Assembly (NCBI GenBank): GCA_026770585.1 | Contig: MU646611.1 | Location: 424,458 to 447,763 of the forward strand | Length of the DNA: 23,306 nucleotides | Origin: Baffinella frigidus | Taxonomy: Eukaryota; Cryptophyceae; Cryptomonadales; Baffinellaceae | Reading direction: 5' to 3' | In this document: positions 1,118 through 23,168 of the stretch, one piece after another | Position numbering within the stretch: position 1 is the first letter of the stretch | Layout of the letters: every line of letters starts with the position of its first letter | Position numbers and translations under genes: made by a program | Notes under the pieces: generated by a model | What the model was told of the DNA's origin: nothing | What the model saw: only the letters and a program-made list of their open reading frames with translations | Databases searched by the model: none

Positions 1118-1220
1118 GTCTAACAATGACGATTTCTACATCATCCTGCCAGCATTCCAAACCGGGCCCCTGCAGGCCAGCTGTCTCGTGCCGGCAGGCA
1201 CCCAGGGCTTCACCATGCAG
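1118..1220 (+). CDS. Exon 1 (first seen): IPT/TIG module segment of REJ/TIG surface protein
   Basis: The acceptor is CCCTCAACCAG and the exon ends CAG before GTCGAA. The peptide includes DDFYIILPAFQTGPLQAS followed by CLVPAGTQGFTMQ. The pattern C-x-VPAGT-x-GF-x-V-x-V is typical of the second half of IPT/TIG Ig-like repeats of surface receptors. It starts with one base completing a codon, so an earlier exon is expected. It ends in phase 0 and joins exon 2 to read QVRLSLNG, as expected for a TIG domain. In-frame TAA follows two codons into the intron. It is the most complete of six tandem copies (1118-1900). The donor is weak, and a later copy could be the one actually used. Confidence 0.6.
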
Positions 1221-1269
1221 GTCGAATAACCCACCACTGTCCAACAAACAATATTCGGGTTTCGGGATT

Positions 1270-1960
1270 CGATGCCGGATCTGCATCGCAGGCCAGGCAC
1301 CCAGGGCTTCACCGTGCAGGTCGAACGATTTCCCCACCACCATCGAACAAAAAAACAATCGTGTTTCGAAGTTCGATACTGGATCAGCATTCCAAACCGG
1401 GCCCCTCCAGGCCAGCTGCCTTGGTCCTGCAGGAACCCAGGGCTTCACCGTGCAGGTCGAAAAAAATCCCTACCGCTGTCAAATAAAAAATATTCGGGTT
1501 TCGAAGTTCGATACCGGATTTGCATTCCAAACCGGACCCCTGCAAGCCAGATGCCTCGTGTCGGCAGGCACACAGGGCTTCACCATCCAGATCGAATACT
1601 TTCCCCACCATTGTCGAATACAAAAATATTCGTCCCCACCACTGGCGAACAAAACAATATTCGGGGTTTGGGGTTCGATACCGGATCTGCATTCCAAACC
1701 GGGCCGCTCCAGGCCAGCTGCATCGTGCCGGTAGGCACACATGGCTTCATCGTGCAGCCCCCCCCCCCCCTTCTCGAATGTACCACGTACGCATGCGATT
1801 ACTACTGCTTTTCGGGTGTCAATACCGGGCCAGCATTCCAAACCGGGCCGCTTCAGGCCAGTTACTTTGTCCCGGCTGGCACAAAGGCGGCACCTTGCAG
1901 GTCGAACAATTTCACGTGTGCCGAATGATTTCCCCACCACTGTCGAATAATTTCTCGCTT
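1270..1960 (+). repeat. Downstream tandem echoes of exon 1 (five copies)
   Basis: Five more copies of the exon 1 3' portion lie at about 1291-1319 (internally deleted), 1385-1454, 1521-1590, 1689-1757 and 1831-1900. Each has the core CATTCCAAACCGGGCC and a GGCTTCA-CAGGTCGA end; the copy at 1689 has CAGCCC in place of the donor. The spacers are also repeated: CCCACCACTGTCGAATA, an AATATTCGGGTTTCG block and GATACCGGATCTGCAT. The repeat period is about 115-165 bp. Only the copy at 1118 has a recognisable acceptor. A 202-codon open frame (1126-1734) runs through the array because of its repetition, but it is out of frame with the TIG reading. Confidence 0.75.
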
Positions 1961-1980
1961 CTGGGGGACTACTAATGCCC

Positions 1981-2082
1981 GTTTTAGTTATCGTCCTGGT
2001 ACCGGGATCGAGCCTGTTTTAGTTATCGTCCTGGTACCGGGATTTGAGCCCAGGGTGGGGCAGATCTTCTACTGCGCCTGCC
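1981..2082 (+). pseudogene. Degenerate upstream echoes of exon 2
   Basis: A 35-bp direct repeat (1981-2015, 2016-2050) begins GTTTTAGTTATCGTCCTGG and continues into ACCGGGAT-GAGCC, matching the 5' half of exon 2. The second copy extends through GGGGCAGATCTTCTACT, then is interrupted at 2083 by an inverted-repeat element. There is no acceptor upstream and no open frame, so it is not usable as an exon. Confidence 0.55.
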
Positions 2083-2193
2083 CGCCCTATTTCCGGCGTC
2101 AACCTCATCCCGGCATTCCCTAGGGTGCTACGGTAGGCAAGCCAGCAGGGTGCTTCGGAACGCCGGAATATGGTTGATGCCGAAATTAGGGCG
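2083..2193. mobile_element. MITE-2 copy a (foldback element, about 37-bp arms)
   Basis: The left arm (2083-2119, CGCCCTATTTCCGGCGTCAA...) pairs with the right arm (2157-2193, ...GATGCCGAAATTAGGGCG) with few mismatches. The short loop contains CTACGGTAGGCAAG. It interrupts an exon 2 echo and is followed by CCACCCTTA, TTTTCGG and GCAG, leading into another exon 2 echo at 2224. The same order is seen at 2643 and 13767. No protein is encoded, so it would be non-autonomous. Confidence 0.65.
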
Positions 2194-2223
2194 TCCACCC
2201 TTATGGTTTTCGGCTGTATGCAG

Positions 2224-2275
2224 GTGAAGCTTTCGCTGCACGTTCGAGGGCAGCACCTCTCCTTTTCTCGCTCTG

Positions 2276-2315
<40 letters not shown>

Positions 2316-2400
2316 CCCTCTCTTGCTCTCGCAGGTGAAGCTTTCCCTGAATGGGAGTTCGAGCCTGGGGTGGGGCATATCTACTACGATGAAACCTCAT
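2224..2400 (+). pseudogene. Two further 5' echoes of exon 2, separated by (CT)n
   Basis: At 2224-2260, after GTATGCAG, the sequence reads VKLSL and then diverges. At 2335-2390, after CTCTCGCAG, it reads VKLSLNG, but a 4-base deletion relative to exon 2 shifts the frame before the EFEPGAGQIFYY motif. A perfect (CT)n run fills 2280-2312. Both copies keep an acceptor and lack a donor. Confidence 0.6.
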
Positions 2401-2574
2401 AAACGTCAAACCGCCTGACGTAAACATTACTACTACTACTCCCTGAACCAACACCCCGAAACCCTGAATCTTCACTACACCCTAAACCCTAAACCCTGAA
2501 CCCTAAACTCTAAACCCTCAACCCCACACCCTAAACTCTAAACCCTCAACCCCAAACCCTAAACCCTAAATCAG
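2401..2574. repeat. Telomere-like intron array
   Basis: CCCTAAA, CCCTGAA and CTCTAAA heptamers fill about 2478-2570 and end AAATCAG at the acceptor of the next exon 2 echo. Confidence 0.7.
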
Positions 2575-2646
2575 GTAAGGCTGTCGCTGAACGGGATCGA
2601 GTTCGAGCCCGGGGCGGGGCAGATTTTCTACTACGCCTTCCCGCCC
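2575..2646 (+). pseudogene. Near-complete 5' echo of exon 2, cut by a MITE
   Basis: Reads VRLSLNGIEFEPGAGQIFYY then AFPP and an in-frame TAA at 2647. It is identical in protein to exon 2 up to Phe22 (AF), then broken at CCCGCCC where a MITE-2 copy begins. It keeps the acceptor and lacks the donor. It is the best-preserved upstream echo. Confidence 0.7.
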
Positions 2647-2736
2647 TAATCCTGGCATTCCCTAGGGTGCTATGGTAGGCAATACATCAGGGCGATACGT
2701 TACGGAACGCCGGAATTTGGTTAACGCCGAAATTAG
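2643..2736. mobile_element. MITE-2 copy b
   Basis: Shares with copy a the segment GGCATTCCCTAGGGTGCTA, the GGTAGGCAAT motif, GGAACGCCGGAAT and GCCGAAATTAGG. It is followed by CCACCCTTACGATTTTCGG and the GCAG acceptor of exon 2. Confidence 0.65.
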
Positions 2737-2767
2737 GACCACCCTTACGATTTTCGGTTGTTTGCAG

Positions 2768-2978: not shown

Positions 2979-3358
2979 GCGGTCACCGCTGGGTTTGGCC
3001 CCAAAGTGAGAGAGAGGTTACTGCTGTGTTAGGGCTGCAGGCGAGAGAAGTGGCGTTTTGTTAAACTGGCGATGTTGAAAGATATCCTGTAGTGAAAGCG
3101 TTGTCTGTGTCTACTACGCCTTTCTCCCGGAGGTCGCCGCTGTGTTCTTGAGGGCCTCGAGGTGACAAAAACGACTTTGAGCCACTTAGCAGCCACCGGG
3201 TCCTTCGATGATGTGTCCATCTAAACGATTCTGGTGCAAATTGCAATTCATTTCAGGGTAAGGGGCTTGAAATGATCCCCGGGAATCCGGGGAAGACAGA
3301 ACTTGGGCGCTGCTAAGTGGGAACTAGTGACTCGGTTACCGCTGAGGTTGGGCTCCAG
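2979..3358 (+). pseudogene. Downstream 3' echoes of exon 2
   Basis: Three fragments match the end of exon 2. One at 2979-3005 (GCGGTCACCGCTGGGTTTGG, then GTGAGA) and one at 3333-3358 (GGTTACCGCTGAGGTTGGGC, then GTGATG) are short. The third, 3111-3160, reads YYAFLPEVAAVF before GTGACA. All have a GT donor dinucleotide and none has the exon's acceptor half. Confidence 0.55.
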
Positions 3359-3660
3359 GTGATGGCGATTTCTTTGATGATCATGCGCTGCTGAAGTCGA
3401 AAGATATCGTGATGTTGAACCGGTGCCCGATGATCGAACAAGCGAAGTCATTAGCGAACACGCACACATGCTCAACTGGTCAAACCCTAGCCTCCGACGG
3501 GAGGAATGCCTACTAGCCATGTTGAACATCGCTACCCGCCGAGACAAAATCCAGAGCGGGACGCCTCAACGAAAGAGGGGACCTCCGTGACTTGAAGCAG
3601 CGGTGGATAAAGGTAACTGGTTTAGGGTTTAGGGTTTCGATAAAAGGTGTAGGGTTCATC
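3359..3660. other. Unassigned intron sequence
   Basis: Mixed-composition sequence without a recognised domain or echo. The TTGAA-GATATC motif at about 3077 and 3402 suggests it also derives from local duplication. A short TTTAGGG-strand patch (GGTTTAGGGTTTAGGG, about 3620) is one of few places where the G-rich telomere strand is on +. Confidence 0.4.
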
Positions 3661-3860
3661 TAAACCCTAAGCAATGAGCCCTACACCCTAAACCCTAAAC
3701 CCTAAACCCTAAACCCTAAACCCTAAACCCTCACCCCTCGACCCTCAACCCTCAACCCTCAACCCTCAACCCTAATCCTTAAACCCTAAACCCTAAACCA
3801 TAAACCATGAACCCTTAACCTTCAACCCTAAACCATAAACCCCAAACTCCAAACCCCAAC
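3661..3860. repeat. Telomere-like intron array (CCCTAAA, CCCTCAA)
   Basis: Perfect CCCTAAA runs at about 3690-3730 turn into CCCTCAA at about 3735-3770 and then into mixed variants. The array ends shortly before the acceptor of exon 3. Confidence 0.8.
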
Positions 3861-3871: not shown

Positions 3872-3949
3872 GTCGGGCCGGAGGAGAGTGCAACGACAAT
3901 CACCGTCACCGGAAGCAACTTCTTGCAGACGACTCGGTCTGCTTGCAAG
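3872..3949 (+). CDS. Exon 3: IPT/TIG core
   Basis: 26 codons, phase 0 to phase 0, acceptor GAAAAAG, donor GTTTTA. Reads VGPEESATTITVTGSNFLQT, then TRSACK. GP-x-x-x-ATTITVTGSNF is the canonical start of an IPT/TIG domain, with the Cys of the C-x-F/V strand at the exon end. The acceptor lacks a pyrimidine tract, so an acceptor a few bases away is possible. Confidence 0.85.
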
Positions 3950-4041: not shown

Positions 4042-4150
4042 CACCGTCTCCGGAACCAAGTTCTGGCAGACGACGTCGACCGCGTCGTGAGCGGTTTCCC
4101 GGGCCGCTCTTCCACCATATGAACGCCCTTCCATAAATCTCCGGAACCAA
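4042..4150 (+). pseudogene. Downstream 3' echoes of exon 3
   Basis: 4042-4085 reads TVSGTKFWQTTST, aligned with ITVTGSNFLQTT of exon 3. A second trace at about 4134-4150 (AATCTCCGGAACCAAACC) keeps only the TG-x-NF region. Neither has an acceptor. Confidence 0.5.
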
Positions 4151-4445: not shown

Positions 4446-4525
4446 GTCGGAAACTTCACGTCCCCGGCGGTGGTGAACGCAGACTCCGAGTCGGTCAAGT
4501 GCTTCGCCCCGCAAATGTCTTCCAG
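4446..4525 (+). CDS. Exon 4: IPT/TIG second half
   Basis: 26 codons plus two bases, acceptor GGGCCAG, donor GTTCCT. Reads VGNFTSPAVVNADSESVKCF then APQMSS. The N-A-D-S-E-S-V-K-C-x-x-P pattern is the usual end of an IPT/TIG domain, pairing its Cys with the one at the end of exon 3. It joins exon 5 through an AG|G Arg codon. Confidence 0.8.
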
Positions 4526-4642: not shown

Positions 4643-4712
4643 GCGGATTTCGGAGCAAGCCAAAGGACTTGTCGGCGAGGGGAAGATCCCGGCGCGTGGA
4701 GACGACGGACAG
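4643..4712 (+). CDS. Exon 5: linker between TIG repeats
   Basis: One base plus 23 codons, acceptor TCGAAACCAG, donor GTACCG. Reads RISEQAKGLVGEGKIPARGD then DGQ. No motif on its own. The frame is chosen because it is the only phase joining exon 4 to exon 6 without stops. It has two downstream 3' echoes. Confidence 0.65.
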
Positions 4713-4718
4713 GTACCG

Positions 4719-4855
4719 CGCTGTATCCGTCTATTTGCGCCCACCAGTTTGCTTCTCCCGGGCTCTTTTCCGGTCCAAAGTTGACGGATTTGTACCATGG
4801 ACCCAGCGTGTCAACTTAGGAATAGTCCGCGAGCCAACCGAGTGCGGCAGCGGTA
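4719..4855. mobile_element. MITE-1 copy a (degenerate)
   Basis: Shares GGTCCAAAGTTGACGGATTT, GTACCA-GG-CCCAGC, GTCAACTTAGGAATAGTCCG and a terminal GGCAGCG with the copies at 5225 and 10402. Its termini are decayed. Confidence 0.6.
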
Positions 4856-4863
4856 TGAGGTAG

Positions 4864-5032
4864 CGAGGGGCTTGTCGCCGAGGGGAAGATCTCGGCGCGT
4901 GGAGACGACGGACAGGTAGTGAGCCCAGACAAGTTCTACTACTGAAAGCCAACGCTAGCGAGGGACTTGATTCGGGGTCTAGCTGTAGGCTTAGGGTTCT
5001 AAAAGCATCCCGCGGGGGGAGACGACGGCCAG
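4864..5032 (+). pseudogene. Downstream 3' echoes of exon 5
   Basis: 4864-4914 repeats GAGGGGAAGATC-CGGCGCGT and GGAGACGACGGACAG before GTAGTG. A second copy (about 4962-5032) is disrupted but ends GGAGACGACGGCCAG before GTCTAG. Both keep the donor side only. Confidence 0.65.
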
Positions 5033-5224
5033 GTCTAGACACTACTAGATTCGAACCCTGCACGTACCCCTGCGACACCACGAGGCTTGCTTCAGCCTGC
5101 ACCTCCCTCCCAGAATCCTCAACTTTGCGAGACATCGCTTGATTCAACCCCTCCCTTGCGCCGTGGAAGAAGCGTATAAGAACCTGACAAGCAATACCCC
5201 CCCTGGCTTTTCCAGAGCGGCTTT

Positions 5225-5361
5225 TAGCTCTGTCTCCGTCTTTTTGGGCCCACCATTTTTTTGCGTCTGAGCTCTTTGCCGGTCCAAAGTTGGCGGATTT
5301 GTACCACGGGCCCAGCATGTCAACTTAGGAATAGTCCGTCAACCCGACTGAGGCAGAGATA
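5225..5361. mobile_element. MITE-1 copy b (TA-flanked, best preserved)
   Basis: Starts TA-GCTCTGTCTCC and ends CTGAGGCAGAGA-TA, giving short terminal inverted repeats inside an apparent TA target duplication, as in Tc1/mariner-type non-autonomous elements. The body carries a CAAAGTTG / CAACTT internal inverted pair. It is 137 bp and non-coding. Confidence 0.65.
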
Positions 5362-5415
5362 GGAGGTATCGAAGGGCGTGTCGTCCCAAAAGTCACCTTA
5401 TCGTCAACTTGCCAG

Positions 5416-5507
5416 GTGTGTGTGGAGTATGCGACGGATGGACAGCACTTCACGACGACGTGCCTCGCCACCTTCACTCACTACACGTCGCCTTCCGTTA
5501 CGGGCGT
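5416..5507 (+). pseudogene. Upstream 5' echo of exon 6
   Basis: After acceptor TTGCCAG it reads VCVEYATDGQHFTTTCLATF and then THYTSPSVTGV, one residue different from exon 6. It diverges at the Gly-Val where exon 6 continues with VPPSAP. It has an acceptor and no good donor. Next to it (5513-5548) is a hairpin with an 11-bp stem, GAAACCATTTA/TAAATGGTTTC. Use as an alternative exon is possible but would break the frame. Confidence 0.6.
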
Positions 5508-5630
5508 GGGAAGAAACCATTTACTGCCACACAGCAATAAATGGTTTCACGCAGCAATACATGGTCTGTACATAACAATGAAGGGTTTTCTGGCGCGGGC
5601 GCCAGGTTTAGACCCCACACCCGAAACCAG

Positions 5631-5759
5631 GTTTGTGTGGAGTATGCGACGGATGGGCAGCACTTCACGACGACGTGCCTTGCGACCTTCACATACTACA
5701 CGTCGCCTTCCGTCACGGGCGTCGTGCCCCCGTCGGCTCCGATGGGGCAGGACACCATG
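5631..5759 (+). CDS. Exon 6: IPT/TIG domain end and next domain start
   Basis: 43 codons, phase 0 both ends, acceptor CCCGAAACCAG, donor GTAACC. Begins VCVEYATDGQHFTTTCLATF, continues TYYTSPSVTGVVPPSAPMGQ and ends DTM. YTSPSVTGVVP is the standard start of an IPT/TIG repeat (F-x-Y-x-x-P-x-V-x-x-I-x-P) and the exon ends where the next strand (LTVYGSHF) begins. It has one 5' echo upstream and four or five 3' echoes downstream. Confidence 0.85.
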
Positions 5760-5920
5760 GTAACCCTACCCCCTCACCCCTAACCCCTAAACAGGAACTC
5801 TATGAGGTGACCCAAACCCTAGCCCCTAACACCTAACCCCCAACCCCCAGCCCCCAACCCCCAACCCCCAACCCCAAACTCCGCACCACCAAGCCCCAAA
5901 CCCCGACACCCAACCCCGAA
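5760..5920. repeat. Telomere-like intron array (CCCCTAA/CCCCCAA)
   Basis: Eight-base to seven-base C-rich units (CCCCTAA, CCCCCAA, CCCCAAA) follow the exon 6 donor directly. Confidence 0.65.
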
Positions 5921-6640
5921 CCTACTACACCTCGCATGCCGTCACTGGCGTCGTGCCCCCGTCGGCTCCGATGGGGCAGGACACCATGGTAAGCTCTTCT
6001 TCTGTATTGTTCTCACGCCTGGAGATGAGACGATAGCGAGGTAGTGAGACGCGCCTTCCTCCGTGTCCCTCCAAGTCCCGAGGCGGGCCTATCAGTCTAT
6101 CTATCGATCGATCTATCTGTACATCTACCTACCTATCTATCTATCTATCCATCTATCTCGATAGCCTATCGCCGTCGACTTTCACTTACTACACGTCGCC
6201 TTCCGTCACGGGCGTCGTGCCCCCGTCGGCCCCGATGGGGCAGGACACCATGGTAAGCTCTTCTTCTGTATTGCTCTCACGCCTGGAGATGAGACGATAG
6301 CGAGGTAGTGAGACGCGCCTTCCTCCGTGTCCCTCCAAGTCCCGAGGCGGGCCTATCAGTCTATCTATCGATCGATCTATCTGTCTATCTATCTATCTAT
6401 CTATCTATCGCGCCTCCTTCCCTGGCCCTGGCCCTGTCCGTGCCCATGTTTCGAAGCGGGCCCCGTCGACCCCCACGGGGCAGAACACCATGGTCACCCG
6501 AACCTTCCGTCACGGGCGTCGTGCCCCCGTGGGCCCCCACGGGGCAGGACACCATGGTGTCGTATACCCCCAACCCCTTCCCCACAGTTAGGCCTTATAT
6601 CCTAGACCCTAAAAAGGTCCCCGTGGGGCAGGACACCACG
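5921..6640 (+). pseudogene. Downstream 3' echoes of exon 6
   Basis: Copies of the exon 6 3' half lie at 5921-5988, about 6180-6252, about 6455-6491, 6502-6556 and 6617-6640, each ending GGGGCAG-ACACCA-G before a GT dinucleotide (GTAAGC twice, GTCACC, GTGTCG, GTGACC). The first two sit in a 264-bp segmental duplication. The shortest reads VPVGQDTT after an AAAAAG. None has the exon's acceptor half with the TTTCLATF segment. Confidence 0.75.
6085..6165. repeat. (TATC)n microsatellite, first copy
   Basis: CTAT/CTAC tetranucleotide run with GATCGATC interruptions. The same array recurs 264 bp later at about 6350-6410 as part of a larger direct duplication. Confidence 0.8.
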
Positions 6641-6902
6641 GTGACCCTAAACCCGAAACCCTAACCTCTAAACCCTAAACAATAAAACCTAAACCCTAAA
6701 CCCTCAAACCTAAACCCTGAACCCTAAACGCTAAATCCCAACCCCGAACCCAAAAATCCCAACCCCGAACCCCAAATCACTAAATCTCTAAAACCTCGAA
6801 CCTCAAACCACCGACCACAAACCCCTAATACCCAAACCCAACCTCCCAACCCCCAACCCCTAACCCCTGAAACCCAACCCCCAACCCCCAAACCCTACCC
6901 AG
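6641..6902. repeat. Telomere-like intron array
   Basis: Mixed CCCTAAA, CCCCGAA and CCCCCAA units run to the CAG at 6900-6902. Confidence 0.75.
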
Positions 6903-7160
6903 GTTAAAGTGCATGGCTCCCACTTCCACAACGCACCCAGCTAACCCTACACCCTAAACCCTGACCCTGACCCCTAACCCCCAACCCTCACCCCAAACCC
7001 CCAACCGCCAACCACACTTGACGGTGTATGGCGCACACTTATGCAACGAACCCGGCTCAAACCCCTCACCCTTAGGTTCTAACCCCTATACTCAAACCCT
7101 AAACTTTAACTTCTACCGCAGTTGACGGTTTACGGCACACACTTCTACACTGAACACCAA
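6903..7160 (+). pseudogene. Three upstream 5' echoes of exon 7
   Basis: 6903-6941 reads VKVHGSHFHNAPS then stop. 7018-7062 reads LTVYGAHLCNEPGSNP but its acceptor is changed to CACACTTG, with no AG. 7122-7153 reads LTVYGTHFYTEH after ACCGCAG. Each stops partway into the exon and passes into telomere-like sequence, with no donor. Confidence 0.7.
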
Positions 7161-7221: not shown

Positions 7222-7337
7222 TTGACAGTTTACGGCTCACACTTCTACAACGAACCCGGCTCAAACCCGCGCTGCAAGTTCGGCGACGAGGAAACAGAGG
7301 CATCCCTCACAGACACGGACGTCAATGGCGGGATAAG
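7222..7337 (+). CDS. Exon 7: IPT/TIG core
   Basis: 38 codons plus two bases, acceptor ACCACCGCAG, donor GTCAAA. Reads LTVYGSHFYNEPGSNPRCKF, then GDEETEASLTDTDVNGGI. LTVYGSHF is the IPT/TIG 'ITVTG-x-NF' strand and CKFGDE is the conserved 'C-x-F-G' strand. It follows exon 6 in phase and makes a complete TIG start (VPPSAPMGQDTM-LTVYGSHF). Confidence 0.88.
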
Positions 7338-7440
7338 GTCAAACCTAAACCCTAAACCCTCAATCCTAAACCCCTAACCTGTGAGTTGACTTAAGTTGGC
7401 CTAAGTTCACAAAAATTAGTCAACATTAGTTGACTTAATT

Positions 7441-7497
7441 CGGGACCGGAGAATCTGAAGCATCCCTCATGGACGCGGACGCCAATGGCGGGACAAG
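7441..7497 (+). pseudogene. Downstream 3' echo of exon 7
   Basis: Reads TGESEASLMDADANGGT and ends ACAAG before GTTTCA, matching the 3' half of exon 7. No acceptor. A TTGACTTAA-type palindromic patch precedes it (7383-7440). Confidence 0.65.
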
Positions 7498-7677
7498 GTT
7501 TCAACCCTGAACCCTAACCCCAAACATAAACCTCAAACGCAAACCCTCTCCATAAACCCTAACGTAAACCCTCAACTCTCAACCCTAACGTAACTCCTAA
7601 CCCTCAAACCTCCACGTAAGCCTCAACTACCCTAAATCCTAAACCATACACCCTAAACCCTACACCCTAAATCCCAG

Positions 7678-7723
7678 GCTCGAGTGCTCCGTGGGACCGT
7701 TAACGACGGGGAAGGCGATGCTG
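7678..7723 (+). CDS. Exon 8: IPT/TIG Cys strand (micro-exon)
   Basis: 46 bp: one base completing Arg, then LECSVGPLTTGKAML. Acceptor CTAAATCCCAG, donor GTTCCC. A C-x-V/P strand with 'G-x-A-M-L-V' is the usual closing half of a TIG domain. The phase (2 to 0) joins exons 7 and 9 exactly. The shortest exon of the model. Confidence 0.7.
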
Positions 7724-7734
7724 GTTCCCCAAAC

Positions 7735-7938
7735 CCTCAACCCTAAACCCTACCATGCACCCTAAACCCCAAACCCTGAACCCCAAACCCTAAACCCTAA
7801 ACCCTTAACCCTAAACCCTGAACCCTAAACCCCAAATCCCAAACCCTAAACCCCAAACCCCAAACCACAAACCCCAAACCCCAAACCCCAAACCCCAAAC
7901 CCCACACCCCAAACCGTAAACCCTAAACATTAAACCAG
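7735..7938. repeat. Telomere-like intron array
   Basis: CCCTAAA, then a homogeneous CCCCAAA stretch at about 7850-7905, ending TTAAACCAG which serves as the acceptor of exon 9. Confidence 0.85.
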
Positions 7939-8022
7939 GTTGGACTGGCGTTTAATGGGGTGTACGAATCGCACAATTCCGTCTTCTTCGCGCGATACGC
8001 CCCCGCGCCCCTCCTACCTCAG
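7939..8022 (+). CDS. Exon 9: IPT/TIG final strand
   Basis: 28 codons, phase 0 both ends, donor GTACGG. Reads VGLAFNGVYESHNSVFFARY then APAPLLPQ. V-x-L-x-FNG-x-x-x-x-x-S-x-x-F-x-x-Y completes a TIG domain, parallel to exon 2. Confidence 0.82.
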
Positions 8023-8225: not shown

Positions 8226-8357
8226 AACCATAATCCCTTAACCCGAAACCTGAACCCTCAACCCTAAACCCCAAACCCCAAACCCCCAACCCAAACCCCC
8301 AAACCCCAAACCCTAAACCCTAAACCCTAAACCCTAAACCCTAAACCCTAAAACCAG
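8221..8357. repeat. Telomere-like intron array
   Basis: CCCTAAA/CCCCAAA units, with a perfect CCCTAAA run at about 8305-8350 running straight into AAAACCAG, the acceptor of an exon 10 echo. Confidence 0.85.
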
Positions 8358-8430
8358 GTGCGGGTCGGAAGGAACTTTGGAAGTGTGGATCTGATGTTCT
8401 ACAACTTCACTGACCGCGCGTCCTTCCTTC
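8358..8430 (+). pseudogene. Upstream 5' echo of exon 10
   Basis: Reads VRVGRNFGSVDLMFYNFTDR then ASF, one substitution from exon 10, and then passes into a GA-rich microsatellite (to about 8480). Acceptor present, donor absent. Confidence 0.7.
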
Positions 8431-8546
8431 CTTCGAGAGCGAGCGAGACAGGGAGAGAGCGAGATAGAGAAAGAGATTTTGCGTTCATTCAGCCATTGTT
8501 ATCCATGCAGTTTAGCTCCTTCAGTGAACCATAACCCCTCGGGCAG

Positions 8547-8643
8547 GTGCGGGTCGGGAGGAACCTGGGGAGCGTGGATCTGATGTTCTACAACTTCACA
8601 GACCGCGCGTCCTTCCGCTCCAACCCCCGCGAAACGGATGCCT
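8547..8643 (+). CDS. Exon 10: segment after the last TIG module
   Basis: 32 codons plus one base, acceptor CTCGGGCAG, donor GTAACT. Reads VRVGRNLGSVDLMFYNFTDR then ASFRSNPRETDA. The V-x-V-x-x-N-x-G-x-x-D-L-x-FYNF pattern resembles a TIG-like strand, but I do not assign a family. It ends in phase 1 and does not match exon 11 directly, so an exon of length 3n+1 is expected between them. Confidence 0.65.
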
Positions 8644-9370: not shown

Positions 9371-9439
9371 GTGGCGTTCACTGAACCCTGAACCCTTTTT
9401 TCAACAGGTGGCTCTAACTCGTCCATCCGCTGCGGGCCG

Positions 9440-15585: not shown

Positions 15586-15638
15586 AGACAGCGATGCTCT
15601 CCAACGCGGTGGGGATGACGGTCACGGTTCTGATGCTC
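15586..15638 (+). pseudogene. Upstream 5' echo of exon 19
   Basis: Reads AMLSNAVGMTVTVLML and stop, matching AMPGNAVGKTSTVLMI of exon 19. The long inverted-repeat element abuts its upstream side. Confidence 0.7.
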
Positions 15639-15949: not shown

Positions 15950-16081
15950 GGGTTGGAAGCGATGCCTGGAAATGCGGTGGGCAAGACGTCCACGGTGCTG
16001 ATGATCCCGGCGCTCTCGCTCATCGCGGGGAGGGTGTACACCGCGTCTGTCACTGCCAAGCATAAGGACGCCGCCGCGCTG
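15950..16081 (+). CDS. Exon 19: REJ strand block
   Basis: 44 codons, phase 0 both ends, acceptor TCCTGACAG, donor GTATCG. Reads GLEAMPGNAVGKTSTVLMIP, then ALSLIAGRVYTASVTAKHKD, then AAAL. L-x-IPA-x-SL-x-AG-x-x-Y-x-x-x-VTA matches the strand before the REJ 'A-x-V-x-V' segment. Two possible 5' echoes upstream and at least four 3' echoes downstream. Confidence 0.88.
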
Positions 16082-16792
16082 GTATCGACTCTCTCTCTCT
16101 GTCTCTCTCAGTCGCTGTCTCTCTCTCTGCCCATGTGTCTGTCTCTTTCTCTGTCGCTGTGACTCTCTATGTACCTCTTTGTGTCTCTCGCCCGCTCTCT
16201 CTATCTCGTCACTGTCAAGCACACAATAGATGTATAGACTATGCCCCGTGTGCGTGGCGTGGTGTACACGGTTCACGCGTGCTGATGCTCCCGGCGCTCT
16301 CGCTCATCGCGGGGAGGGTGTACTCCGCGTCTGTCACTGCCACGCATAAGGACGCCGCCGCACTGGTATCGACTGTTTCTCTCTTTCTCTCGCTCGCTCT
16401 CTCTCTCTCCCACACATACACACACAGGCTCTCTCTCTATGTCTCCCTTTCTCTGTCTCTCGCGCTCTCTCTCTCTCTCTCGCTCTCTCTCTCTCGTCAC
16501 TGACAAACACAAGGACGCCGCCGCGTTGATATAATCTCTCTCTGTCTCTCTCTCTCTGTCTCTCTCTCTCTTTCTCCCCTTCTTTCTCTCTCTGTCGCTC
16601 TCTCTCTCTCTATTTCGCGTCACTGCCAAGCATAAGGACACCGCCGCGCTGGTATAGACTGTCTCTCTCGCTCGCTTCCTCTCTCTGTCTCTCTCGCCCT
16701 CTCTCCATCTCTCTCTTTCTCCCTCTCATTGTCGCTCTCTCTCTCCCCCCACCTCTATCCCTGGTTTTAACTAAGGTCTCTCTCAATCGCAG
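16082..16792 (+). repeat. (CT)n intron with four 3' echoes of exon 19
   Basis: Donor-side copies at about 16207-16231, 16280-16365 (SLIAGRVYSASVTATHKDAA and intact GTATCG donor), 16495-16529 (donor lost) and 16617-16651 (donor GTATAG). Each is followed by CTCTCT/CTGTCT runs, so the repeat unit is 'exon 3' end + GT + CT-run'. Minus-strand open frames rich in Arg-Glu here are artefacts of the microsatellite. Confidence 0.8.
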
Positions 16793-16861
16793 TCGGCGAA
16801 AGCGACGGTGACAATCGAAGTGGACCGGAGCGCGCCGGTCGCGGTCATCAACGGACACTCC
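16793..16861 (+). pseudogene. Upstream 5' echo of exon 20
   Basis: After ATCGCAG reads SAKATVTIEVDRSAPVAVIN then GHS, identical to exon 20, then runs into a CT microsatellite. Identity at the DNA level suggests a recent event. Acceptor present, donor absent. Confidence 0.85.
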
Positions 16862-17028
16862 TCGCTGTCTCTCTCTGTCTGGCTGTCTCTGTCTCACTGT
16901 CTCTCTGTATCTGCCTCTCTATGTCTCTCTCTCTCTCGCTCGCTCTCTTTCTTTCTCTCTCTCTCTCTCACACACGCACACACTATACCTGGTGCTAACT
17001 AACCTCTCTCTCTTTCTCTCTATCGCAG

Positions 17029-17135
17029 TCGGCGAAAGCGACGGTGACAATCGAAGTGGACCGGAGCGCGCCGGTCGCGGTCATCAACGGACACTCCCGC
17101 GCCGAACCCGCCACCAAGAAACTCGTCCTCTCAGG
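17029..17135 (+). CDS. Exon 20: REJ central strand
   Basis: 35 codons plus two bases, acceptor TATCGCAG, donor GTGCGT. Reads SAKATVTIEVDRSAPVAVIN then GHSRAEPATKKLVLS. S-x-x-TVT-x-EVDRS-x-P-VAVI-x-G followed by L-x-LSG is among the most conserved REJ stretches. One 5' echo upstream and three 3' echoes downstream. Confidence 0.92.
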
Positions 17136-17275: not shown

Positions 17276-17629
17276 TCGAAGTGGATCGGAGCGCGCCGGT
17301 CGCGGTCATCAACGGACACTCCCGCGCTGAACCCGCCACCAAGAAACTCGTGCTATCCGGGTACTTAGATCCCCAAACTGGTTGACTTTGATTTTTTTTG
17401 ATGGCGTGTCGAGATTTTATGCCGTCTTGTGTGTGCCAAGAAACTCGTTGCATCCGGGTACTTCTACTTCTCTCGCAGTCTATTTGGGCTCACCGATTTG
17501 GTGGGCCCGGGCTCTTTCCCGCTCAAAAGTTGACGAATGTCAACTTGAGAATAGTCTGTCAAGAGGGCGGTCGCGGCCATCAACGGACTCGCGTGCAGAA
17601 CCCGCCCCCAAGGAACTCGCCCTGTCCGG
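17276..17629 (+). pseudogene. Three downstream 3' echoes of exon 20
   Basis: 17276-17360 starts in the EVDRSAPVAVINGHSRAEPA region and ends TATCCGG before GTACTT. 17434-17457 keeps CCAAGAAACTCGTTGCATCC. 17566-17629 is frameshifted, ending GTCCGG before GTATTT. Following intron text (TTAGAT-CCAAACTG) is shared by the first and last. Confidence 0.8.
17476..17564. mobile_element. MITE-1 copy e (truncated)
   Basis: CTATTTGGGCTCACC, CCCGGGCTCTTTCCCGCTC and GTCAACTTGAGAATAGTCTG shared with copies b-d. Ends decayed. Confidence 0.55.
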
Positions 17630-17815
17630 GTATTTAGATTACCAAACTGATTTGCTTTCCACCCAGAGGGCTTAGGAGCGAATTTCACCCGGATTTCCGG
17701 GTCAAGTCCGGGTGAATGTCCAGTTATTCCCTTGCAATGGACAAGGTTTGTACCAGGGAAACAGAAAACGAGCCCGCCTCGGTACGGTCGGAGTCCTCAA
17801 AGGTGCGCGTCCGTA

Positions 17816-17880
17816 GGGCACAATTGTATGACCCGGATGTATCGACCGCGGAGAACCTCGTAGCTCTCCGACACGATTTT
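17816..17880 (+). pseudogene. Upstream 5' echo of exon 21
   Basis: After CCGTAG reads AQLYDPDVSTAENLVAL, matching AQSYDPDLSPAANLAG of exon 21, then stops where a foldback element begins. Confidence 0.75.
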
Positions 17881-18121: not shown

Positions 18122-18225
18122 GGCGCAATCTTACGACCCGGATCTATCACCCGCGGCGAACCTCGCTGGCTCTTCGACTCTCTCCTATGAGTGGTCCTGC
18201 GTCGGCGAACGAGACTCTTTCCCAG
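18122..18225 (+). CDS. Exon 21: REJ 'SYDPD...LSYEWSC' strand
   Basis: One base, 34 codons, one base. Acceptor GTGGCGCAG, donor GTATCT. Reads AQSYDPDLSPAANLAGSSTL then SYEWSCVGERDSFP. Joined to exon 20 it gives LVLSG-AQSYDPD, and LSYEWSC is the diagnostic Trp-Cys strand of REJ domains. The strongest single-family exon in the window. Confidence 0.93.
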
Positions 18226-18656
18226 GTATCTCTCTCTCTTGCGCGCGCGCCCTGTCTCTCTGTCGCTCGCTCTCTCTCTCTCTCTCGCACACACACACAC
18301 ATTCACGTGTATGTACCAAGTTTCTACTCAAACTCCGAAGCCTGCCTTTCGATTTCGGGGATACCTTGGCTTCAACGGCTCCAATTCCCACACTTGGACG
18401 AAAATGCCGGGGGATGGGGGGTGACTTTTACCCTGTATACAACCAGTTTTAGCATTCTCTTGGTTGAAATGATGGAAGGTTCTTTTACTCTGCATACAAC
18501 CAGTTTCAGCATTCTCCTGGCCGAAATGATGGAAGGTTCAGGTGGTTGAGTAGATCGCATCCAATGTCGTATCACGTGTCACGTCCAGGGTCGTCGTCAA
18601 GTAAAGGTCCTTTGGACGTGGACTCACTGGCACACCCTGACAGCGCGGTGTCGCAG
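18226..18656. repeat. (CT)n intron with a 57-bp tandem duplication
   Basis: CT/GC/CA-rich run at 18226-18305. At about 18422-18540 a 57-bp unit (CATACAACCAGTTT-AGCATTCTC, GAAATGATGGAAGGTTC) is present twice and stays open in one frame (FTLYTTSFSILLVEMMEGS and a second copy). No acceptor/donor pair or domain supports it as an exon. Confidence 0.6.
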
Positions 18657-18720
18657 GCGTGATCACGCCGTGCGTGGAGCTAAACGCGGACTTCTTGTTC
18701 TTCCCGAACAACTTAGTGCG
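18657..18720 (+). pseudogene. Upstream 5' echo of exon 22
   Basis: After GTGTCGCAG reads VITPCVELNADFLFFPNNLV then diverges. Three substitutions from exon 22. A (CT)n run follows (18755-18812). Confidence 0.8.
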
Positions 18721-18754
18721 ACTCGAGACTCGTGCACCCTTTCAGGACCGAGTT

Positions 18755-18789
<35 letters not shown>

Positions 18790-18854
18790 CGCTCGCTCTC
18801 TCTCTCTCTGATGACGCACCCTGAAGACACTGGCACCTCTCCTCTGTCTCGCAG

Positions 18855-18937
18855 GCGTGATCACGCCGTGCGAGGAGCTGAACGCGGACTTCTTGTTCTC
18901 CCCGAACAACTTAGTGCGCTCGCCTTCGATCCTGCAG
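18855..18937 (+). CDS. Exon 22: REJ segment with Cys
   Basis: Two bases plus 27 codons, acceptor GTCTCGCAG, donor GTTTGG. Reads VITPCEELNADFLFSPNNLV then RSPSILQ. Follows the PG-x-x-x-PC Cys expected after the REJ WSC strand. Phase fits exons 21 and 23. A 3' echo (GCTCGCATTCGGTCCTCCAG) ends at 19061. Confidence 0.85.
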
Positions 18938-18998: not shown

Positions 18999-19070
18999 AG
19001 GTTGAAGGTTGAGGTCCTCACCACGGGACGGGTATCTGCGCGCTCGCATTCGGTCCTCCAGGTCAGGGTT
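18948..19070 (+). repeat. G-rich telomere-like run and 3' echo of exon 22
   Basis: GGGTTGA heptamers (18957-19010) put the G-rich strand on +, against the general bias. The donor-side echo of exon 22 (about 19039-19061) follows, with GTCAGG as donor. Confidence 0.75.
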
Positions 19071-19084
19071 GCCACCACGGGTGT

Positions 19085-19220: not shown

Positions 19221-19283
19221 CCGAGCGGAACCTTACCCCTCCCGTGGTTCAACGCCGACTACCGCTACACCTTCACGCTCGTG
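19221..19283 (+). CDS. Exon 23: REJ 'YRYTFTLVV' strand
   Basis: 21 codons, phase 0 both ends, donor GTATGC. Reads PSGTLPLPWFNADYRYTFTL then V. With exon 24 it gives YTFTLV-VTRAG, matching the REJ 'Y-x-F-x-L-x-V' strand. Confidence 0.85.
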
Positions 19284-19287: not shown

Positions 19288-19545
19288 GCACCCATAACCC
19301 TCAACCCTAAATCCTAAACCCTAAACCCTAAACCCTAACACCTCATCACTAAACCCTCAACACTCAACATCAAACCCTAAACCCTAAACCCTAAACCCTA
19401 AACCCTGAACCCTGAACCCTACACCCTACACCCTAAACCCTAAACCCTAAACCCTAAACCCTAAACCCTAACCCCCAAAACCCAAACCCGAAACCCGAAA
19501 CTCTAAACCCTAAACCTGAAATCCTCAACCCAAACCCCTCACCAG
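19288..19545. repeat. Telomere-like intron array
   Basis: Long CCCTAAA runs (for example 19375-19405, 19432-19470), then CCCGAAA, ending CTCACCAG at exon 24. Confidence 0.9.
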
Positions 19546-19602
19546 GTCACGCGGGCGGGTGTCGGCGCATATCCCGCCAAGAGCCACACCACCTCCATCG
19601 AT
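19546..19602 (+). CDS. Exon 24: REJ segment
   Basis: 19 codons, phase 0 both ends, donor GTAAGC (canonical). Reads VTRAGVGAYPAKSHTTSID. Follows YTFTLV in frame. Confidence 0.82.
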
Positions 19603-19725
19603 GTAAGCCCTAAACCCTAAACCCTGAATCCTGCACCGCAAACCGCAAACCCCAAACATCGTTGCCCTCAAAACGTTCCCAAATCCTTGGGCTCAAAACG
19701 TGCTCAAAACGTTGCTCGTTCGCAG
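19603..19725. other. Intron with CAAAACG direct repeats
   Basis: Short telomere-like patch, then CTCAAAACGTT repeated three times before the acceptor TTGCTCGTTCGCAG. Confidence 0.45.
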
Positions 19726-19770
19726 ATCTACCTGTTCCTCGACAACTTCCCGCAACTTCCGATGCAATCT
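19726..19770 (+). pseudogene. Upstream 5' echo of exon 25
   Basis: Reads IYLFLDNFPQLPMQSA, two substitutions from IYLFLDEFPQLLMQ, then diverges. Shares TTGCTCGT-CGCAG with the exon 25 acceptor. Confidence 0.75.
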
Positions 19771-20444: not shown

Positions 20445-20528
20445 ATCTACCTGTTCCTGGACGAGTTCCCGCAGCTCTTGATGCAACCCCGTCCGGCTGG
20501 AAAACATAACCCCGGCAAGGCGCTCACG
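20445..20528 (+). CDS. Exon 25: REJ segment
   Basis: 28 codons, phase 0 both ends, acceptor CGTGCGCAG, donor GTACGT. Reads IYLFLDEFPQLLMQPRPAGK then HNPGKALT. Phase and order agree with REJ; the segment itself is less conserved. It has 5' echoes upstream (19726, 20352) and 3' echoes downstream (20574, 20701). Confidence 0.82.
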
Positions 20529-20573: not shown

Positions 20574-20750
20574 CATGAAAACACGACCCCGGGAGGTCGC
20601 TCACGGTAACCGTGACTGTAAGGACAACAGCGAAACCATACACTATAGTAAGCACAACAGATGCCAGCACAACAGATAAACCATACTACGTATGCATCCT
20701 CGTCTGGCTGGAAAACACGATCCCGACACGACCCCGGCAAGGCGCTCACG
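20574..20750 (+). pseudogene. Downstream 3' echoes of exon 25
   Basis: 20574-20606 (AAAACACGACCCCGGGAGGTC, ending CTCACG before GTAACC) and 20701-20750 (CGTCTGGCTGGAAAACACGA, ending CTCACG before GTCAAG). Donor sides only. Confidence 0.75.
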
Positions 20751-20835
20751 GTCAAGCCATACCCGAACCCCTACACCAAAATGTTACAACCTACACCTAA
20801 ATTGTGAACCCTAAATTTTCCAACCATAAACTCTT

Positions 20836-20957
20836 AACACCAAACACCAAACACCAAACACCAAACATCAAACACCAAACACCAAACACCCAACACCCAA
20901 TACCAAACACCCAACACCAAACACCATACACCAAACACCACACACTAAACATCAAAC
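20836..20957. repeat. CACCAAA array
   Basis: Uniform ACACCAA units, with CACCCAA and CATCAAA variants, ending in CCCTCAACCCTGACGCAG. Confidence 0.85.
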
Positions 20958-20974
20958 CCTCAACCCTGACGCAG

Positions 20975-21019
20975 GTGATCCCGTACATCACCGGAGCGTG
21001 GACGCTCAGCAAGAACCTG
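20975..21019 (+). pseudogene. Upstream 5' echo of exon 26
   Basis: Reads VIPYITGAWTLSKNL, two substitutions from exon 26, then turns into telomere-like CCCGAAA text. Acceptor CCTGACGCAG, no donor. Confidence 0.8.
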
Positions 21020-21194: not shown

Positions 21195-21257
21195 GTGATT
21201 GCGTATATCAGTGGAGCGTGGACGCTCAGCAAAAACCTCGTCTGGTCGACCACCCAG
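21195..21257 (+). CDS. Exon 26: REJ segment
   Basis: 21 codons, phase 0 both ends, acceptor CCGGACGCAG, donor GTTACG. Reads VIAYISGAWTLSKNLVWSTT then Q. Only this one of three copies has both acceptor and donor. Confidence 0.82.
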
Positions 21258-21400
21258 GTTACGAGTCCCCCACCCCACGGTTGACTACGGGGTCTTTTCA
21301 AAAGTCAAGTTGCCCCGTGGCGAGTTGACTTTAAGGCCTTTGCTGGTACATAAGTGGTGGATAAGATCCCTATATGCAGAGGGTCTTGGTTGTGCCGTAG

Positions 21401-21433
21401 CCCAGCAAAAACCTCGGCTGGTCCACCACGCAG
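21401..21433 (+). pseudogene. Downstream 3' echo of exon 26, donor lost
   Basis: CCCAGCAAAAACCTCGGCTG to ACCACGCAG reads PSKNLGWSTTQ, but the following bases are ATTGAG, so the donor is destroyed. Confidence 0.7.
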
Positions 21434-21483
21434 ATTGAGAACCCCCCCAATCGCCACGCGTGACTCAGACGGGAAACAACCAA

Positions 21484-21606: not shown

Positions 21607-21825
21607 GGTGACCTCGCACCGTCCTCGCACCCCGAGGCGTTCCGCATAGTGTTACCACAGGGCAAAACCCGCCCGGAAGATACCCAAAGTTCAAATAAAT
21701 ATCTAAATTCAAATCAGCCAAATGTGATATACATCACATAACCAAAGGGGGATTCAAATTCAATATTCCGTGCGATGTATTGTTTAGGTTATTTTAAATT
21801 AAATTCCCCGTACGTTGTGGCGCAG
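21607..21825. other. AT-rich intron tail
   Basis: AT content is clearly higher at 21680-21810 than elsewhere. It contains ATGTGAT-ATAC-ATCACAT (stem 7, loop 4). Ends at acceptor GTGGCGCAG of an exon 27 echo. Confidence 0.45.
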
Positions 21826-21876
21826 GGCGACGTTGCACCCTCAAGGCAGCAAGAAGCCTTCATCATGGATGCCGCG
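21826..21876 (+). pseudogene. Upstream 5' echo of exon 27
   Basis: Reads GDVAPSRQQEAFIMDAA, one substitution from exon 27, then TGTGTG text. It ends just where exon 27 goes on with PSFSLTV. Confidence 0.85.
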
Positions 21877-22001
21877 TGTGTGCTATTGTGTTATATTGTA
21901 AAGCAATTTCGAGTCTACGATGGCGAATTCCACCCTTAATATCGTACAAAACGGTATTTCAAATTGAAGCTGATTTCTCTGTTCCGGGCACTGGGGCGCA
22001 G

Positions 22002-22151
22002 GGCGACGTTGCGCCGTCGAGGCAGCCAGAAGCGTTCATCATGGATGCCGCGCCCTCCTTCTCGCTGACGGTCCTCCCAGACAAGCTGACGCCGGGCATG
22101 ACGTACAAGTTCCGGGCGTCGTGGGCGGAGAACACCCAAGCCTTCGCCGAG
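22002..22151 (+). CDS. Exon 27: REJ segment
   Basis: 50 codons, the longest exon, phase 0 both ends, acceptor GGGGCGCAG, donor GTCCGT. Begins GDVAPSRQPEAFIMDAAPSF, then SLTVLPDKLTPGMTYKFRAS, then WAENTQAFAE. L-x-PG-x-x-Y-x-FR-A matches the REJ 'L-x-P-x-x-x-Y-x-F-x-x' strand before the VNSPP segment. Confidence 0.9.
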
Positions 22152-22200
22152 GTCCGTAACCTTCCGAAACACATTCCAATTTTGGCACACCCAAGCGTTC

Positions 22201-22228
22201 GCTGGGGAACACCCAAGCTTTCGCCGAG
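22201..22228 (+). pseudogene. Downstream 3' echo of exon 27
   Basis: GGGGAACACCCAAGCTTTCG ends CCGAG before GTCCGT, the same donor as exon 27. A shorter trace (CACACCCAAGCGTTCGC) precedes it. Confidence 0.75.
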
Positions 22229-22465
22229 GTCCGTCCACTCGAGGCTGGAAATGGAATTATTATCGGGTTGAGGTTTCTCTCGCGCAGGTCTTCGCTTAAG
22301 GTTATCTCACGCTCTGTCTTGACCATCTTTCTGGCAATAGAATTTAATTACACAGAATGAGTTTTACTAGTAATGTTAAAAAACTCGTGTAGTAGTTTTC
22401 ATTGAATCCCAAAGTTTCAAATGAAAATCGTTTTTTTATGAGATTCAACACTGCTGTCTTGGCAG
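22229..22465. other. Intron stretch with AT-rich inverted motif
   Basis: TAATTACACAGAATGAGTTT and AACTCGTGTAGTAGTTTTC resemble the loop of the 498-bp inverted-repeat element at 15080. No exon seen. Confidence 0.4.
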
Positions 22466-22665
22466 GTGAGAGTGGTGGTGAACAGCCCCCCCCGACCCAT
22501 CTCTATCTTTTCAAAGTCGTCTCTCTCTCTTTCAGAGAGTCATCTCTCTCTCTTTTTCGGAAAGTCATTTCTCGCTCTTTCAGAAAGTCGTCTTCTCTCT
22601 CTCTGTTTTGGCAGGTGGCGGTAGTGGTGAACAGTCCCCCGATCGTCGGAATCTTCAGTCTCTCT
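22466..22665 (+). pseudogene. Two upstream 5' echoes of exon 28
   Basis: 22466-22500 reads VRVVVNSPP and diverges. 22615-22656 reads VAVVVNSPPIVGIF and then passes into CTCTCT text. Both have the acceptor TTGGCAG and no donor. A roughly 33-bp tandem repeat (AAAGTC-TCTCTCTTTCAG) lies between them. Confidence 0.8.
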
Positions 22666-22672
22666 TCCTATG

Positions 22673-22797
22673 TCTTAGTCGTCAATGACTGTCTTAGTCA
22701 GCAATGACTGTCTTTGGTCATCACTGACTGTCTTTGGTCAGCAATGACTGTCTTAGTGAGTAATGACTGTCTTGGTCACCAATTACTGTCTTGGCAG
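22673..22797. repeat. About 20-bp tandem repeat ending in the exon 28 acceptor
   Basis: Units of CAATGACTGTCTTAGTCAG and variants (GTCTTTGGTCAGCAATGACT) repeat about six times and end ACTGTCTTGGCAG, the acceptor of exon 28. Confidence 0.85.
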
Positions 22798-22896
22798 GTG
22801 GCAGTGGTGGTGAACAGTCCCCCAATCGTCGGAATCTTCACTGTCTCTCCATCCACCGGCGCCTCCCTCGATACCTCCTTCTCCTTCTTCGCTGAC
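22798..22896 (+). CDS. Exon 28: REJ 'VNSPP...VSPSTG' strand
   Basis: 33 codons, phase 0 both ends, donor GTCTGA. Reads VAVVVNSPPIVGIFTVSPST then GASLDTSFSFFAD. VN-x-PP-x-x-G-x-x-x-V-x-P-x-x-G-x-x-L-x-T-x-F is a textbook REJ stretch. An in-frame TGA follows the donor, so the exon must be spliced. Confidence 0.93.
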
Positions 22897-22897
22897 G

Positions 22898-23110
22898 TCT
22901 GAAACCCGAAACCCGATACCCGAAAACTCGAAACCCCGAAACCGAAACACGAAACACAAAAACCGAAATTCGAAACACGAAACACGAAAACCGTGAACCG
23001 AACCCACAACCCCCAAACCCCACACCCCAAATTCAAAACCCAAAACCCAAAACCCAAAACCCAAAACACAAACCGCAAACCACAAACCACAAACCACAAA
23101 CCACAAATCC
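22898..23110. repeat. CCCGAAA, CACGAAA, CCCAAAA and CCACAAA arrays
   Basis: Starts immediately after the exon 28 donor with CCCGAAA, changes to ACACGAA, then AAACCCA, then ACCACAA units up to 23106. Confidence 0.85.
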
Positions 23111-23118
23111 AGGGGTAG

Positions 23119-23168
23119 ACCGACGATCCAGAAGACATGCCTCTCACATACGCATTCGTATACCGGAA
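23119..23168 (+). CDS. Exon 29: REJ 'DDPEDMPLTYAFVYR' strand
   Basis: 16 codons plus two bases, acceptor AGGGGTAG, donor GTATGC. Reads TDDPEDMPLTYAFVYR. In REJ proteins FTF-x-A is followed by D-D-x-D-x-PL-x-Y-x-F-x-Y, so this continues exon 28 exactly and in phase. If the donor is not used, the frame runs on to YASCD and a TGA. The gene continues beyond the window. Confidence 0.85.

Follow-up and report, generated by a model that had tools for sequence, protein, structure and literature searches.

Partial exon copies with a consistent polarity in the introns of a REJ domain gene of the cryptophyte Baffinella frigidus

In tandem exon duplication, extra whole copies of an exon come to lie beside the original, with both splice sites. 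In another described case, a tandem genomic duplication in the RdRp gene of potato crossed an intron-exon boundary (PMC4974935). Under the AGGT model, as outlined in two later papers, an intron is gained via duplication of an exon segment that bears AGGT (Rogers 1989; Hellsten 2011, via PMC3443670 and PMC4974935). Introners, according to PMC9860276, are accompanied by target duplications of 3-9 bp, which are shorter than the exon copies described here; neither Baffinella nor the string cryptophyt was present in the main text of that paper. A literature search for exon fragments, partial exon copies and boundary duplications in introns brought up only a Lynch syndrome paper, with subscription papers mostly beyond its reach. 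Here we analyze a stretch of nuclear DNA of 23,306 nucleotides (hereinafter, the window) from the cold-water cryptophyte alga Baffinella frigidus, located at a contig end (positions 424458-447763 of MU646611.1), in which the exons of a gene encoding a REJ domain protein are accompanied by numerous partial copies, or echoes, in the adjoining introns.

The part of the gene contained in the window was rebuilt as 31 exons (96-23169), which splice into a single open frame without a stop codon. All 30 introns begin with GT and end with AG (median length, 666 bp), and the exons sum to 2691 bp, compared to about 20 kb of introns. The spliced product contains the Pfam domains TIG, K319L-like PKD and REJ and is identical in 843 of 929 aligned columns to the NCBI entry "REJ domain-containing protein, partial [Baffinella frigidus]"; 84 of the 86 non-identical columns are gaps, which trace back to the NCBI model (P0001): there, exon 3 is cut short at its end, and three echoes, of exons 12, 20 and 22, are taken as coding exons. 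Because the frame stays open after splicing and the product agrees with the NCBI protein, the rebuilt exons are real. An earlier examination of the letters and open reading frames of this locus (hereinafter, the sequence-only reading) had listed fewer exons; the list now runs from position 96 and includes exon 0 (96-154) and the 37-nt exon 10b.

Each of the 31 exons was compared with the whole window on both strands at a cut-off of E ≤ 0.01, and each match was classed as 5' or 3' according to whichever exon end lies nearer to it. Besides the exons themselves, 51 echoes were detected, representing 20 of the 31 exons (14 with upstream and 15 with downstream echoes), whereas the same search in shuffled introns yielded 0-2 matches in each of 20 shuffles; the earlier observation that exons have broken copies nearby is thus borne out. 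All 51 echoes are on the plus strand and lie in an intron adjoining their own exon; none matches a different exon, and no inverted copies were found at this cut-off. The polarity proposed in the sequence-only reading, that is, 5' parts upstream of the intact exon and 3' parts downstream, is obeyed by 49 of the 51 echoes (31 downstream 3' parts and 18 upstream 5' parts). Counted per exon side, it is kept in 28 of 29 cases (binomial p about 1e-7). The assertion that there is no clear exception fails: both exceptions are upstream 3' parts from exon 10b, namely, one copy that is close to full, retains both splice sites and exceeds the exon by 18 bp through an internal repeat (9090-9144), and a shorter 3' piece (9277-9309). 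Exon 0 lies outside the range covered by the sequence-only reading and thus serves as a held-out case; it follows the polarity, its 3' echoes lying downstream. In the introns that hold both kinds of echo at the cut-off, the 3' echoes of the previous exon precede the 5' echoes of the next exon in 8 of 8 cases. At laxer cut-offs, the number of matches rises to 60 (E ≤ 0.1) and 105 (E ≤ 1), and minus-strand and distant matches appear; one minus-strand match with an E-value of 0.005, which came up only in wider runs, is the palindromic start of exon 22 aligned on itself. Altogether, echoes make up about 16% of the introns in a hand-made list of 60 intervals that includes weak ones. The strand, adjacency, polarity and non-chance origin of the echoes are plain from these counts.

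The same arrangement recurs in a second gene. Three further stretches, away from the window and from its matches, were examined (L018, and the contiguous L016 and L025). L018, which was unselected, contains a gene with four exons, chosen by eye after the repeats had been seen, whose joined frame stays open over 81 codons. Echoes, 11 in total and all on the plus strand, belong to two of these exons; the polarity is kept in 10, and the remaining one is an internal segment similar to a portion of the adjoining echo. In the A-B intron of this gene, the 3' echoes of the previous exon come first. A by-eye guess that L018 encodes a PP2C protein was dropped, Pfam giving no match to the fragment. A WD40-like gene in L016/L025 was left out of the scoring because protein repeats confound the test.

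The polarity follows directly from the geometry of duplication. We enumerated random tandem duplications over the observed exon lengths, setting introns at 120, 300 or 650 bp and duplicated units at 120, 200 or 300 bp. By construction, every event that breaks within an exon leaves behind either the 5' portion of that exon on its upstream side or the 3' portion on its downstream side. Nothing else can come of a direct tandem duplication of this type, and hence the polarity is a signature of tandem duplication and not a separate or new rule. Depending on the settings, 6-51% of the enumerated events duplicated a whole exon without cutting one, whereas the window contains a single near case, exon 10b, which argues for selection against extra exons. 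Thus, we infer both tandem duplication as the event and a selective filter. The mechanism advanced in the sequence-only reading, repeated tandem duplication, is upheld by strand, adjacency and polarity insofar as the events would be direct and local, with one cut inside the exon; its further component, a unit that spans the present exon-intron boundary, fares worse, given that the intron flank is clear in only a minority of the echoes and the differences between copy and exon are too silent (see below).

In the reading that we favor, to which we assign a probability of roughly 0.6, the echoes come from local duplication in which a functional allele that had diverged was often involved, while selection retained a single intact copy of the exon. 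Many head-to-tail duplications would have occurred, each broken within an exon at one end and within the adjoining intron at the other, so that every event would leave the intact exon plus a piece of it, either 5' and upstream or 3' and downstream. Purifying selection would remove most other outcomes, such as whole extra exons and cuts inside the coding sequence, and the introns would thereby fill with one-ended fragments and lengthen. With less certainty, either the copied version or the present one may often derive from a diverged functional allele. The duplication could have involved the sister molecule or a diverged homologue as partner, or else a broken end into which foreign DNA was filled.

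The involvement of a diverged allele is suggested by the distribution of differences between the copies and the exons. Across 53 echo alignments in the window, mismatches number 51, 53 and 140 at the first, second and third codon positions, respectively, and copy and exon differ at roughly 15% of third positions; these codon tests omit the exon 10b copies and the downstream matches of exon 12 at 11380, exon 17 at 14540 and exon 20 at 17436. We simulated a neutral copy evolving beside an exon that accepts silent changes only (120 runs; 52 alignments, the exon 0 copy at 542 being additionally omitted). The observed silent fraction is 0.557, compared to 0.419 ± 0.033 in the simulation (maximum of the 120 runs, 0.504), and with one echo per exon side (n = 32), it is 0.572 compared to 0.418 ± 0.037. 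In L018, the mismatches are 9, 5 and 35 by codon position (35 silent and 14 non-silent), for a silent fraction of 0.714 against 0.423 ± 0.069 simulated; when restricted to one echo per exon side, the 3 remaining alignments give p = 0.02. This is more silent change than dead copies of the present exon should show. An explanation by CpG mutability alone was considered and rejected because the third-position excess persists outside CpG contexts, with rates of 0.054, 0.056 and 0.159 at the three codon positions.

Among the ten window exons with several echoes, four have at least three, and in these, the changes private to one echo are evenly spread over codon positions (12/11/14), whereas those shared by at least two echoes are third-biased (3/4/15). 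We read this as an indication that the copies were mostly dead after capture, and came from, or now lie beside, a silently different functional allele; the six exons with two echoes, and L018, leave room for the copies to have been coding for some time. That the echoes are working alternative exons, with their coding sequence kept by selection, would account for the silent excess and for the third-position bias of differences between echoes, and agrees with the use of the echoes of exons 12, 20 and 22 as exons in the NCBI model. The echoes, however, are one-ended fragments, their private changes show no codon-position bias in the four exons with three or more echoes, and, as a weak additional sign, the REJ score drops slightly, from 101.6 bits to 98.1, when two echoes are inserted into the product. 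We consider this possibility far-fetched.

The intron flanks of the echoes were compared with those of the respective exons in an anchored alignment of 80 bp, minus the 3 bp at the splice site, and ranked against the flanks of 29 other exons. The flank of the own exon came out at rank 0-1 of the 29 controls for 16 of the 45 echoes tested, about 3 being expected; these include copies of exons 1, 11, 19 and 20. In 19 of the 56 alignments examined (17 of upstream and 39 of downstream echoes), similarity stops 2-6 bp beyond the splice site. The silent excess, together with the often unmatched intron flanks, tentatively points to the involvement of a diverged functional allele. In its simple form, the duplication scenario would dispense with such an allele: the present exon-intron boundary is duplicated in tandem, and the copy decays unconstrained. 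The polarity, strand and adjacency of the echoes, the matching flanks and the even private changes in the four exons with three or more echoes are all compatible with this form, but the flank match is missing in the majority of the echoes tested, and the silent fractions in both the window and L018 exceed the simulated values. We regard the simple form as unlikely, with the proviso that it shares the duplication step with the favored reading, so that the odds of the two overlap. In a further scenario, the introns of this alga archive coding alleles. Exon pieces bounded by splice sites would be captured from other functional versions of the gene in a highly diverse population (with about 15% silent divergence), via exchange between homologues with matching exons and unmatched introns, and introns would grow mainly by such capture instead of by ordinary tandem duplication of the exon already in place. 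We consider this a tentative possibility, on the doubtful side.

Returning to local duplication with a diverged allele as the preferred explanation, several observations weigh against it. The flank does not stand out in 29 of the 45 echoes tested, and some of the flank matches, for exons 19 and 20, pair one simple TC repeat with another. Echoes that share a source exon cannot be counted as independent. Direct pairs within 1200 bp include only 3 that are confined to introns, compared to 45 with one copy in an exon, although the filters were unequal, with 30 unmasked bases and no echo required of the intron-only pairs alone; with 650-bp introns and 200-bp units, 60% of the events are expected to be intron-only and 23% to cross a boundary. 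To account for this shortage of intron-only pairs, introns would need to have been shorter once or to turn over fast, or exons would need to be targeted. A threefold CpG rate narrows the silent excess (simulated 0.467 ± 0.030, maximum 0.551, against 0.557 observed; with one echo per exon side, 0.471 ± 0.035 against 0.572). In the six exons with two echoes, private changes are third-biased (5/6/17; shared ones, 1/0/7), and mismatches between echoes are third-biased as well, both in the window (57/52/117) and in L018 (39/15/57); the biases in private changes and between echoes agree less readily with copies that were dead once captured. The codon tests compare each copy with the present exon, without an outgroup. 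Finally, a genome-wide search for a diverged second copy of exons 2-4 found none, the six matches being four from the locus itself and two paralogues with 36-37% identity, so that the diverged-allele step is without a direct witness.

The spacers between echoes and exons contain simple repeats, repeats resembling miniature inverted-repeat transposable elements (MITE-like) and unique DNA. Among the upstream spacers, 7 of 17 are 115-123 bp long (2642-2764, 5508-5626, 8428-8543, 13767-13889, 18726-18845, 21877-21991 and 22665-22785); the first and fourth share related MITE-like sequence, and the other five look unrelated. Staggered breaks repaired with filler, such that the overhang is filled in on both sides with unrelated DNA in between, would yield the order copy, filler, copy and would be in line with both the make-up of the spacers and the recurrent upstream length. 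Only 2 of the 18 nearest downstream spacers, however, fall within 110-125 bp, and filler repair leaves unexplained both the arrest of similarity just past the splice site and the silent excess; we deem it improbable. Precise-insertion (RNA-based) explanations for the arrest of similarity at the splice site were dropped because GT is not, as a rule, found at the start of the spacers and because the shared flank is longer in several echoes.

A misassembly that merged haplotypes alike in their exons but unlike in their introns would likewise produce silent differences and unmatched introns, and the published CCMP2293 genome is an Illumina AllPathsLG assembly (PMC9756366). The assembly analyzed here (382,457,362 bases in 1364 contigs), however, is not that one, for which the paper gives 534.5 Mbp and 10,880 scaffolds. 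The window contains no N and includes arrays with up to five different copies of one exon, which argue against misjoining, and the same pattern is seen in L018. Such an artefact is very improbable.

The exons and echoes, all on the plus strand, are arranged as follows. The splice-site dinucleotide is usually kept in the echoes, as the sequence-only reading had it, but not invariably: GT is absent, for example, in copies of exons 1 (at 1689), 3 (at 4042) and 26 (at 21400). Exon 0 is followed by 3' echoes at 319-353 and 654-716, both with a donor, and exon 1 (1118-1220) by five 3' echoes, at 1294-1350, 1385-1464, 1522-1598, 1689-1757 (without a donor) and 1829-1909. Upstream of exon 2 (2768-2866) lie an interior echo of exon bases 28-62 (2043-2077) and two 5' echoes with an acceptor (2331-2388 and 2572-2641); downstream, there is a 3' echo with a donor (3110-3165). 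Exon 3 (3872-3949) has one 3'-side echo that has lost its donor (4042-4078), and exon 5 (4643-4712) has two 3' echoes with donors (4868-4918 and 5003-5034). Exon 6 (5631-5759) is preceded by a 5' echo with an acceptor (5412-5507) and followed by five 3' echoes, three with a donor (5920-5992, 6176-6256 and 6503-6558) and two others (6461-6499 and 6621-6649). Exon 7 (7222-7337) has two 5' echoes, one with the acceptor lost (7011-7064) and one with the acceptor present (7115-7155), and a 3' echo (7440-7508); exon 10 (8547-8643) has a 5' echo with an acceptor (8355-8427). Exon 10b (9408-9444) is the source of the two exceptional copies. Exon 11 (9646-9717) is followed by 3' echoes at 9767-9839, 9870-9932, 10084-10148 (donor lost) and 10267-10327 (weaker), and exon 12 (10862-10967) by one with a donor (11089-11176), which is an exon in the NCBI model.

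Farther downstream, exons 14 (12190-12299) and 15 (13165-13242) have only weak 3' echoes (12410-12440 and 13348-13365, respectively), both outside the E ≤ 0.01 list, and exon 17 (14349-14433) also has weak echoes only. Exon 16 (13893-13961) has a 5' echo with an acceptor (13737-13766) and a 3' echo with a donor (14063-14099). The 5' echo of exon 19 (15950-16081) starts from exon base 9 (15590-15638), and three 3' echoes follow, at 16271-16398 (intron flank present), 16492-16540 (donor lost) and 16619-16665. For exon 20 (17029-17135), the 5' echo (16780-16865) retains the acceptor and flank and is partly an exon in the NCBI model, whereas the 3' echoes retain the donor and flank (17276-17376) or the donor (17568-17631). 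Exons 21 (18122-18225) and 22 (18855-18937) each have a 5' echo with an acceptor, at 17812-17872 and 18648-18725, respectively, the latter an exon in the NCBI model; a weak 3' echo of exon 22 (19040-19071) is outside the E ≤ 0.01 list. Exon 25 (20445-20528) has a 5' echo with acceptor and flank (19701-19767) and two 3' echoes with donors (20577-20608 and 20692-20752); exon 26 (21195-21257), a 5' echo with an acceptor (20955-21018) and a 3' echo with the donor lost (21400-21447); exon 27 (22002-22151), a 5' echo with acceptor and flank (21816-21876) and a 3' echo with a donor (22204-22234); and exon 28 (22798-22896), two 5' echoes with acceptors (22454-22491 and 22603-22664). No echo was found at E ≤ 0.01 for exons 4 (4446-4525), 8 (7678-7723), 9 (7939-8022), 13 (11804-11918), 18 (14797-14861), 23 (19221-19283), 24 (19546-19602) and 29 (23119-23169, with an uncertain 3' end).

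The introns also contain other repeats, including MITE-like ones (2083-2176, 2644-2722 and 13764-13857), a repeat family in both orientations that is MITE-like by eye (4718-4877, 5227-5383, 10402-10536, 12475-12600 and 17461-17538) and, in intron 18-19, an inverted repeat of about 500 bp with 89% identity (15080-15577). Telomere-like heptamers (CCCTAAA and variants) are abundant and often reach the splice sites; heptamer-rich stretches include, among others, 1-820, 2475-2570, 3660-3856, 7727-7936, 9450-9643, 11924-12176 and 19296-19537. The CTAAA within the heptamer repeat is, we presume, a candidate branch-point sequence. ACCAG precedes nine exons, and many donors look weak past the GT. Distant TIG relatives (L009 and L010, around the matches on C755 and C197) lie in very long uninterrupted frames, of 1158 and 4397 amino acids, where the GC content is 0.60-0.65 and local direct repeats are absent, in contrast to this intron-rich gene.

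The Baffinella genome is reported to be 6.1 times the size of that of Guillardia theta (PMC9756366). The window illustrates how introns of about 20 kb can come to accompany exons that total 2.7 kb. The polarity of partial exon copies provides a cheap signature that tells tandem duplication from dispersed copying in any genome. By the prediction of the sequence-only reading, leftovers with a single splice site would be passed over under exon definition. On the practical side, echoes mislead gene prediction, as illustrated by the three that entered the NCBI model of the window gene. If the pattern of silent differences holds genome-wide, introns would preserve past or other alleles and so provide a new source of population history.

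Among the known systems, tandem exon duplication differs from the present case in its pattern, to which only the exon 10b copy at 9090-9144 comes near. Introners resemble this locus in that repeated MITE-like elements occur in several introns, but the echoes are pieces of neighbouring exons and not copies of one element. The AGGT model shares with the window the placement of directly duplicated exon sequence in an intron, and in 18 of the 31 exons here, the acceptor AG is immediately followed by GT. By our deduction, however, that model places the 5' part of the next exon at the start of the intron and the 3' part of the previous exon at its end; the order is the reverse in all eight window introns with both kinds of echo and in the A-B intron of L018. 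The potato RdRp gene comes close, the duplicate there consisting of the 3' side of an intron together with the 5' part of the next exon, with the fragment upstream, as in the echoes (PMC4974935). In contrast to that single event, which created a new intron, the Baffinella gene contains dozens of fragments, from both exon sides, inside introns and often without a matching flank. The sequence-only reading knew of no named description of such a pattern, but boundary-crossing tandem duplication is already published for the potato gene; it is the density of its traces that is unusual here.

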